A DNA stretch of 64,000 nt from an uncultured Pelagibacteraceae bacterium (GTDB lineage: Bacteria > Pseudomonadota > Alphaproteobacteria > Pelagibacterales > Pelagibacteraceae): positions 1 through 64,000 of the forward strand of contig CACIRD010000004.1 in the NCBI GenBank assembly GCA_902588965.1, in the 5' to 3' direction. The notes beneath the pieces are model-generated. The model had not been told where the DNA came from and ran no database searches. It saw only the letters and a list, made by a program, of their open reading frames with translations. The translations under genes and the position numbers were made by a program. Shown piece after piece: positions 23,668 to 25,862 of this stretch (position 1 is the first letter of the stretch; each line of letters opens with the position of its first letter).

Positions 23668-24101
23668 CTTTATTAGTAAATAAATAGTACATATTTTTTA
23701 AAGTAACATATTAAGTATTGCACTTATATATATGTAATTATTAGTTTTTTTGAATATTAAATAAATTAAAATATATCAAAGAAAGAAAATTATAAATATG
23801 GAATTAAAAAATTATGGATAGTAAAAAAAGGTAACAATATCAGTAATAATATGCATCCATAGTTAATTATAAGTTAAAATATCAATATAAAACATTTTTA
23901 TAAATCATATTTATAACGAAAATTAATGAATAATGTTGCTTAAAAAAATGAGCAATGCATTAAAGGAATATAGCATTTAAAGGACCATAGAAGGGGTTTA
24001 TTTAAGTAAAGTTCGTTATTAAGTACAACCAATGGTCGAAATGATAAAACATGGTACTTTTATAGGGTAAATTGTAAAAAAATGTTTAAAATCAATGCTT
24101 T
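23668..24101. other. Gene-free spacer with interleaved inverted repeats
   Basis: No credible open frame on either strand of this 434-bp AT-rich spacer; the longest ATG frames are under 15 codons. Between 23983 and 24059 two six-base inverted repeats interleave: GACCAT (23983-23988) with ATGGTC (24032-24037), and AAGTAC (24021-24026) with GTACTT (24054-24059). That order would give a pseudoknot if transcribed. A spacer this long is unusual for so compact a genome and adjoins the accessory region. Confidence 0.5.
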
Positions 24102-24377
24102 TTAGAGATAAAAACCCTCTTTTTTTAAGAGTTTTTTCTTCGTTTTTACACCTCCTGGACCCGAATATCCGCCTATTGTACCATCTGACCTAACAACTCT
24201 GTGACAAGGTATTATTGGAGAGTAGGGGTTCTTACCGCATGCGTTTGCTACAGCTCGTGCAGATTTAGGACTATTTATGCCTATAGCAACATCTTTGTAA
24301 GTTATAATACTGCCTTTTCGTATAGTTTTAATATATTTCCAGACTTTAATTTGAAATTTTGTACCTTTTAAGATCAT
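24102..24377 (-). CDS. ogt: Methylated-DNA-protein cysteine methyltransferase (short form)
   Basis: Suicide repair protein removing alkyl groups from O6-alkylguanine. The 91-aa product is just the C-terminal alkyltransferase domain: FQIKVWKYIKTIRKG, ITYKDVA, SARAVANACGKNPYSPIIPC (C58 acceptor, in the motif PCHRVV) and GGYSGPGGVKTKK. The frame stays open to 24464, but the extra 29 residues (MAVAHTTTCQNNC...) would be encoded by the structured RNA and its terminator hairpin, so I start at ATG 24377. That leaves no obvious ribosome site, and the usual N-terminal domain is missing. Confidence 0.85.
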   Translation of the reverse strand: MILKGTKFQIKVWKYIKTIRKGSIITYKDVAIGINSPKSARAVANACGKNPYSPIIPCHRVVRSDGTIGGYSGPGGVKTKKKLLKKEGFYL

Positions 24378-24383
24378 CTGTAA

Positions 24384-24429
24384 AAGAAAAACCCCTGTTT
24401 CCTTGCACCTTTTCAGGTACAAAGAACAG
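24384..24429 (-). terminator. Rho-independent terminator of the candidate RNA
   Basis: On the minus strand CUGUUCUUUGUACCU pairs with AGGUGCAAGG-A-AACAG around a GAAA loop (24395-24429; 15 pairs, one bulged A), followed by GGGUUUUUCUUUU. It is the clearest intrinsic terminator in the window and lies just before the ogt start. Confidence 0.8.
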
Positions 24430-24566
24430 TTGTTTTGGCACGTCGTTGTATGCGCTACCGCCATGCCTTCCGCTCTACGATTTTAGCGCTACTCCGTAAA
24501 GCTTTCTGCCCCCTGGGCTTGGTCCTCTCGGCCTTTCCCCAGTCGGCCAGTTAAGGGTTGCCCCTT
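24384..24566 (-). ncRNA. Candidate structured non-coding RNA of unknown class
   Basis: A sharply GC-richer block in an AT-rich region. Read on the minus strand it begins near 24566 with a hairpin UUAAGGG-GCAA-CCCUUAA (24551-24568), then CUGGG/CCCAG enclosing GGCC-GAGA-GG(A)CC, then GC-rich segments with possible GCGCUA/UAGCGC and GGCAU/GUGCC pairings, and ends in a 15-bp hairpin with a GAAA loop plus a U-rich tail. Three GNRA tetraloops, a CATAAT -10 element and a terminator point to an independent RNA of about 180 nt. It lacks the hallmarks of tmRNA, RNase P, SRP and 6S RNA as I know them. The class is not recognised. Confidence 0.7.
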
Positions 24567-24571
24567 AATTC

Positions 24572-24577
24572 ATTATG
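24572..24577 (-). promoter_or_regulatory. Predicted -10 element of the candidate RNA
   Basis: CATAAT on the minus strand places a transcript start near 24565, at the foot of the first hairpin. No good -35 hexamer is seen 17 bp upstream, so the promoter is weakly supported by sequence alone. Confidence 0.4.
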
Positions 24578-24665
24578 ACATTAACAAAGTTAAATGGTTG
24601 TATGTATCACTTAATCGTTGAATTTTGAGATTTATTAACATGGTTGAATAATGGGGATAACTTTT

Positions 24666-24880: not shown

Positions 24881-24905
24881 TTCCGATAATTAATGGTTAT
24901 CGGAA
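24881..24905. repeat. Perfect 9-bp inverted repeat next to the recombinase promoter
   Basis: TTCCGATAA (24881-24889) and TTATCGGAA (24897-24905) flank the 7-bp spacer TTAATGG. The repeat starts one base after the -10 hexamer and ends six bases before the recombinase start codon. It could be an operator, a leader hairpin that limits translation, or a recombinase core site, since 9-11-bp arms around a 6-8-bp spacer are typical of tyrosine-recombinase targets. Confidence 0.7.
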
Positions 24906-24911
24906 ATATTT

Positions 24912-25862
24912 ATGAATGAGTTAATAACAGATCTGAAAAGTCTCGAAATAGAAACCTTAAAAAACTTAAGGAGTTCTAAAGCTGCTAATACTTTAAGAGC
25001 TTATCATGCAGATTTTAAAGACTTTTCAGCCTTTTGCTTAAGAAATGGTTTGAATTCATTACCAACAGAGCCAAAAATACTAGCTTTGTATTTAACTCAT
25101 TTATCATCAACGTCAAAATTTAGTACCCTTAAGCGTAGAATAGCATCAATAGGAGTTATCCATAAGAGTAAAGGGCATTATTTAGACACGAAACATCCTA
25201 TAATTATGGAAAATTTACATGGGATTAAAAGGGTAAAGGGAACAATTCAAAAAGCAAAAAAACCTATATTAATCAATGATTTAAAAAAAATAGTTAAAGT
25301 AATAGATGAGAATATAATTGGTTCAAGACCGACAGATAGGAAGAAATATAAGCAACATAAAAATAAAATAAGAGATAAAACATTGATTTTAATCGGATTT
25401 GCTGGAGGTTTTAGAAGATCAGAAATTGTAAATATTGATTATGAAGATGTAGAATACGTTTCAGAGGGAATAAAGATTTTTATTAGACGGTCAAAAACGG
25501 ATCAATCAGGGGAAGGAATGGTCAAGGCAATCCCCTACTTTGATAATAAAAATTATTGCCCGGTGAATTCATTAAAGCAATGGGTAGAATATTCACAAAT
25601 CAAATCTGGCAAATTATTTAAGATATCTGATAAAAGTGTATCATTAATTATCAAAAAATATGCAAATTTAGCAGGTTTAGATGCCAATAAATATGGAGGA
25701 CACAGTCTAAGATCAGGATTTGCAACATCAGCGGCTGAAGCTGGTGCTGAAGAACGAAATATAATGGCTATGACGGGTCATAAGACAACACAGATGGTAA
25801 GAAGATATATTCAAGAAGCAAACTTATTTAAAAATAATGCATTAAATAAAATTAAATTTTAA
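24912..25862 (+). CDS. Tyrosine recombinase/integrase
   Basis: Site-specific recombinase of the tyrosine (phage integrase) family, 316 aa. An N-terminal SAM-like DNA-binding domain (about 1-110: SSKAANTLRAYHADFKDFSA) is followed by the catalytic domain. The catalytic set is complete: R168 in GGFRRSE, K195 in RRSKTDQ, H264 and R267 in GGHSLRSGF, H290 in MTGHKT and nucleophile Y299 in VRRYIQ. It appears intact and has its own promoter. It overlaps the convergent GT11 gene by 11 bp. Mobility genes such as transposases or excisionases are not seen beside it, so it may be a remnant or a resident integrase of the variable region. Confidence 0.93.
   Translation: MNELITDLKSLEIETLKNLRSSKAANTLRAYHADFKDFSAFCLRNGLNSLPTEPKILALYLTHLSSTSKFSTLKRRIASIGVIHKSKGHYLDTKHPIIMENLHGIKRVKGTIQKAKKPILINDLKKIVKVIDENIIGSRPTDRKKYKQHKNKIRDKTLILIGFAGGFRRSEIVNIDYEDVEYVSEGIKIFIRRSKTDQSGEGMVKAIPYFDNKNYCPVNSLKQWVEYSQIKSGKLFKISDKSVSLIIKKYANLAGLDANKYGGHSLRSGFATSAAEAGAEERNIMAMTGHKTTQMVRRYIQEANLFKNNALNKIKF

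Follow-up and report, generated by a model that had tools for sequence, protein, structure and literature searches.

An IMES-2 RNA gene in a Pelagibacteraceae genome, with co-varying hairpin loops and a recurring upstream layout

Introduction

IMES-2 is an RNA motif named from metagenomes (Rfam family RF02035) and was reportedly described by Weinberg et al. in 2009. It is reportedly abundant in metatranscriptomes, and the SAR11 bacteria in which it occurs rank among the most numerous marine cells. To our knowledge, no function has been assigned to IMES-2 so far; a literature search for one returned nothing that we recognised as bearing on that subject. IMES-1 (RF02034) is a marine metagenome RNA motif too. 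6S RNA (RF00013) is a small trans-acting RNA, in which IMES-2 may resemble it.

Here, an IMES-2 gene was characterised in a stretch of 64,000 nucleotides from an uncultured Pelagibacteraceae bacterium (the window). Three observations go beyond the Rfam family model: a pairing between hairpin loops, an upstream layout that accompanies the gene from locus to locus, and IMES-2-less relatives in which ogt and the recombinase are retained. The function becomes testable through the compensated changes in the loops, through the travelling layout and through close relatives that either carry or lack the cassette.

Results and discussion

Identity of the RNA gene

The RNA was identified by a cmscan match to RF02035, which scored 159.7 bits where the cut-off is 54.7. 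All 141 model positions were aligned, four of them (two pairs) being flagged as non-standard.

24435-24575, minus strand: IMES-2 RNA core (RF02035, model positions 1-141, full length)

This was the only IMES-2 match in the 1.14-Mb genome. A preliminary description had taken the RNA for an unclassified one, whose novelty an Rfam hit would remove; the full-length match rules out that reading and, by the same reasoning, the novelty of the class. The kinship with IMES motifs at which it had guessed was correct, and there is strong support for a structured RNA gene, as it proposed, that has a terminator of its own and is preceded by conserved sequence. The sharp rise in G+C that it reported was found as well: measured every 100 bases, the value climbs from 0.26 to 0.60. 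The locus resembles the described motif in its full-length match, its consensus helices and its SAR11 carriers. It differs in that the Rfam structure line does not join the last two loops to each other, and in that promoter and terminator lie outside the model. IMES-1 in place of IMES-2 was rejected: none of 147 genomes of the order exceeded the RF02034 cut-off, the one weak match reaching 27.4 bits, in a scan of uncertain sensitivity that matched no control genome either.

Fold and covariation

The minus strand of 24384-24577 folded at -77.5 kcal/mol, compared with -52.0 (sd 4.2) for shuffled sequences (z -6.1; 0 of 200 as low). Four elements made up the core, with covariation counted over 49 distinct sequences:

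24551-24568, minus strand: P1 hairpin with GCAA loop, in the consensus structure; 100% of cells paired, 3 of 7 pairs changed on both sides
24506-24550, minus strand: P2/P3 rod with GAGA loop, in the consensus structure; 9 of 15 pairs changed on both sides
24472-24502, minus strand: P4 hairpin; 95.9% of cells paired, 8 of 8 pairs changed on both sides
24437-24467, minus strand: P5 hairpin; 9 pairs, 88.7% of cells paired, 3 pairs changed on both sides

All three GNRA hairpins of the preliminary description were recovered, the GCAA and GAGA loops capping consensus hairpins of RF02035 and the GAAA loop capping the terminator stem. The 49 sequences were aligned with MAFFT, blind to structure, and two diverged sequences of genus g2 were left out. 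Over the 44 tested pairs (39 of the family structure and five of the loop-loop helix described below), 94.4% of cells paired and 26 pairs were changed on both sides. None of 500 shuffles reached the observed values, and slid versions of the structure paired in 32-41% of cells. Covariation, which had been proposed as a check on the RNA gene, was therefore strong. Two pairs ran against the drawn structure: pair 33-64 failed in 29 of the 49 sequences, and the P5 column pair 116-134 was never standard in any of them.

Loop-loop pairing

Model positions 87-91 in the P4 loop are complementary to positions 120-124 in the P5 loop.

24485-24489, minus strand: loop-loop strand in the P4 loop (GCGCU), co-varying with 24452-24456
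24452-24456, minus strand: loop-loop strand in the P5 loop (AGCGC), co-varying with 24485-24489

This helix was followed through 142 distinct sequences, obtained from 168 aligned rows by dropping three truncated or broken ones (L128, L116 and L088) and merging identical rows. The rows had been aligned to a family-like model of our own, R1, which contains no loop-loop pairs. The four core pairs were formed in 567 of 568 cells, with compensated changes. Pair 89-122 was paired in all 142 sequences (GC in 134, AU in 8), and pair 88-123 in all but one (CG in 136, UA in 5, and a single CU mismatch in L059); pairs 90-121 and 91-120 were invariant. The fifth pair, 87-124, was formed in 119 sequences. 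Jointly, the five pairs reached 686 of 710 cells, with all five present in 118 sequences, and 0 of 10,000 shuffles attained this score. Such shuffles ignore relatedness, for which counts of parsimony events correct in part: on a tree built without these columns, three events fell at 89-122, and two and three on the two sides of 88-123. Among the 35 sequences with loops other than the commonest ones, 34 kept the four core pairs and 11 kept all five.

When the helix was scored alone in the 49-sequence alignment, three pairs were changed on both sides, a count reached by 4 of 500 shuffles; its covariation score was reached by 0 of 500, whereas 78 of the 500 had at least as many further pair types. 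Slid by +1 column, the helix had nine double-change cells compared with seven in place, yet only 30% of its cells paired. Taken as sequence comparisons, these results are good evidence that the P4 and P5 loops of IMES-2 pair with each other. The pairing may be formed within one molecule or between two; both fit, and the sequences cannot tell them apart. Self-pairing of the first loop was rejected, as the variants GCACU and UCGCU are not self-complementary, while pairing of the first loop with the second fits.

Terminator and upstream region

The core is flanked by four further elements:

24382-24429, minus strand: intrinsic terminator, a hairpin of 15 pairs capped by a GAAA loop, with a U run after it; fold z -6.3, 0 of 200 shuffles as low
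24578-24586, minus strand: -10-like element TGTTAATGT; TG-n-T-nnnn-T conserved in 51 aligned loci from four genera, two T columns invariant
24606-24620, minus strand: CAACGATTAAGTGAT box, close to where a -35 element would be expected; C, G, G, A and T columns identical in all 51 loci
24643-24660, minus strand: DnaA-box-like tandem repeat TTATCCCCA-TTATTCAAC; 9-mer with at most one mismatch from TTATCCACA in 118 of 166 upstream regions

The 15-bp terminator hairpin with its U tail had been read correctly from the window. At L032, L036 and L049, this part folded into hairpins of other sequence (z -4.7 to -7.3). The IMES-2 terminator was not listed by a consensus terminator scan, nor did a consensus promoter scan list a promoter at the -10 region. 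The CATAAT that had been proposed as the -10 element found no support: its columns were poorly conserved (0.35-0.77), and the TG-n-T-nnnn-T element a few bases upstream was conserved instead, with values of 0.85 and 0.75 for the TG columns over the 51 loci.

The site of the CAACGATTAAGTGAT box was the sole exact match of CAACNANNAAGTGAT in the genome. An AGTGAT-like core was present in 165 of 166 upstream regions, the exception being a chimera-like viral contig (L088). A regulon defined by the AAGTGAT box was rejected, with six matches compared with 12 in the reversed control.

The DnaA box consensus is TTATNCACA, from which most boxes of genus g1 deviate. The TTATCCACA-like 9-mer was exact in 20 of the 166 upstream regions, had one mismatch in 98 and two or more in 48, much of this count being related sequence. 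Random chromosomal windows contained an exact TTATCCACA at a frequency of 0.0001 and a one-mismatch version at 0.008 (~0.8%); four exact boxes occurred in 800 kb of sampled chromosome. TTATCCnC stood 38-52 bases before the AGTGAT-like core or box in 114 of the 166 regions. Genome-wide, the tandem motif showed no excess (55 matches in 14 genomes, 54 in the reversed control). The search recovered the IMES-2 site in four of eight positive genomes, the misses being the window's own genome, G015, G001 and G007, and in two g6 genomes the only exact match was the IMES-2 site. The tandem motif is a feature of the IMES-2 gene, and its assignment to DnaA is weak.

Across genera with differing neighbours, the same order recurred, variants included: DnaA-box-like repeat, box ending in AAGTGAT, ~20 bases, TG-n-T-nnnn-T (order read by eye in 32 rows, column conservation taken from the 51 loci). 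A related upstream layout precedes IMES-2 at unrelated loci. By eye, none of 32 pattern matches in eight negative genomes placed the same promoter before another RNA; this is a weak negative, as the pattern found the IMES-2 site in only two of five positive genomes.

Genomic neighbourhood

In all 11 loci of genus g1, IMES-2 was flanked by ogt and a tyrosine recombinase, directly upstream of ogt and on the same strand. In g5/g6, an mnmA-like gene was upstream in all eight loci, and the next downstream gene was convergent in seven; the eighth, L033, had another gene on the same strand. Both g2 loci had other neighbour genes, with a convergent gene next downstream. Apart from ogt, the EamA transporter and the recombinase, genes were named by reading of the sequence.

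The g1 arrangement would suit a riboswitch or attenuator of ogt, the more so as only a few bases separate the end of the U run from the likely ogt start at the window locus. This cis-acting leader is nevertheless extremely unlikely, and we rejected it: the downstream gene differs between genera, down to the convergent genes of g5/g6 and g2, and ogt was retained where IMES-2 was absent. The latter was seen with a recombinase probe, which covered 16 genomes, namely 14 IMES-2-negative g1 genomes and two of g2. Recombinase and ogt were both present in all 14 negative g1 loci, and blastn with six IMES-2 sequences found nothing between them. The two gene starts were 265-301 bases apart in seven of these loci, with only a small frame between, and 720-1252 bases apart in the other seven, with further frames between. 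A recombinase tree of 129 loci implied, with weak support, ~10 changes between presence and absence of IMES-2. Because this tree is poorly supported, losses or exchange explain the pattern equally well.

The mechanically called ogt frame begins within IMES-2 (window 24377-24464). The true ogt start is likely the internal ATG at 24377, which would leave the RNA gene free.

Distribution among genomes

IMES-2 was detected in 139 of 297 genomes of the order Pelagibacterales, from four of 11 genera, with a single match in each. Two of these matches were diverged (68.7 and 62.1 bits) and one was partial, near a contig end. Since the other 158 genomes had no match, IMES-2 is not essential. Three of 385 genomes matched class-wide, the window's own and two of the same family, in a set that holds few genomes of the order. 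A degenerate IMES-2 pattern occurred in at least 120 stretches; the 80 titles among the matches listed were all Pelagibacter, Pelagibacteraceae or Pelagibacterales. With model R1, 197 genomes were scanned and no diverged IMES-2 was found in negative genomes; 79 genomes matched with an E-value limit of 1, including one whose match was no better than 0.65. The reach of R1 is limited, because its matches included no g2 genome although RF02035 finds two.

Could IMES-2 be a cassette, selfish or mobile, that is gained and lost over time? Its absence between recombinase and ogt in all 14 negative g1 genomes and the changes on the recombinase tree would agree with this. The single copy in each of the 139 positive genomes, the constant neighbours within each genus group and the viral data (0 matches in 50,697 phage records, one chimera-like match in viral contigs) argue against it, and we hold it to be very unlikely. 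Two further viral scans with narrower patterns also gave no IMES-2, and a phage-borne RNA was rejected.

The lone viral match lay at the end of a contig (L088:2042-2149), where an IMES-2 fragment is joined at a palindrome inside a methylase-like frame, so named by reading; the contig looks like an assembly chimera. Another copy, at L116:263-394, kept P1-P3 and had lost the P4/P5 pattern, and may be either a broken gene or an assembly join.

Possible mode of action

The differing neighbours, together with the gene's own upstream region and terminator, argue for action in trans. The single-copy gene would be transcribed alone from its own conserved promoter, starting near 24572 and ending at its own terminator, to give a predicted RNA of ~185-190 nt. 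This RNA would fold compactly into a GNRA hairpin, a rod and two neighbouring hairpins with paired loops. It would probably be recognised by shape, because nowhere do 6 or more consecutive nt combine full conservation with being unpaired. Our preferred reading, held tentatively, is that IMES-2 acts in trans by binding a protein or large complex, for example the ribosome or RNA polymerase, rather than by classical antisense pairing.

An antisense RNA, pairing in trans with mRNAs through loop or leader sequences and perhaps with Hfq, would likewise be a free-standing RNA with a U-rich terminator. The 5' leader of IMES-2 is unpaired, and the P5 loop has ~6 unpaired bases towards its 3' end. That leader is variable, however, the conserved loop bases are taken up by the loop-loop pairing, and a fully conserved free seed of at least 6 nt was not seen, so we consider an antisense role unlikely.

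The DnaA-box-like repeat hints that synthesis of IMES-2 may follow replication or growth, possibly under DnaA control. The fullest version of this, a trans-acting RNA coupled to replication or growth, driven by DnaA or a protein with a similar site, and capturing a core machine with its kissing-hairpin fold in cells with no detectable 6S RNA, strikes us as rather improbable.

A closer parallel to 6S RNA, with IMES-2 binding RNA polymerase and tuning transcription with growth, would be in keeping with its compactness and predicted own promoter. None of 97 genomes of the order, the window's own included, had an RF00013 match, compared with five of 14 control genomes (four over the cut-off). The architecture is another, however, as IMES-2 lacks the long rod with a central bubble, and IMES-2-negative genomes are likewise without a 6S match, which speaks against a simple replacement. 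We judge such a role improbable, and replacement of 6S RNA by IMES-2 was rejected, the two distributions not being complementary.

Recombinase, dif-like site and other features

A dif-like palindrome (24881-24905) lies directly before the Xer-like tyrosine recombinase (24912-25862). The recombinase had a single match in 16 of 16 genomes; its protein scored below all curated Xer cut-offs and passed that of Pfam Phage_integrase. A palindromic core, GATAA-n(6-8)-TTATC/A, was found at most 65 bases before the recombinase in each of the 142 loci that had sufficient sequence, although many of these loci are related or share a genome. With twenty 20-kb stretches sampled per genome, GC skew turned here in both G015 and G001, that of G015 also wavering around zero elsewhere, and cumulative GC skew in the window peaked at 24-28 kb and was noisy beyond. 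This suggests a single Xer-like recombinase with an adjoining dif-like site at a turning point of GC skew; a survey from 2009, by contrast, reported Pelagibacter ubique to be without a dif/Xer system (PMC2731167).

An AT-rich noncoding element follows ogt at ~23950-24038 of the window (minus strand sense); it is conserved and was present in both IMES-2-positive and -negative genomes. It had blastn matches in 111 of 215 sequences, the window's own place being counted three times. Its RNA fold was unconvincing (60 column shuffles gave z -2.2 and -1.0), and there was no Rfam match at gathering score. Elsewhere in the window's genome, at L213:294-376, a match to the rhtB sRNA family (RF01814) scored 76.6 bits, over a cut-off of 55.
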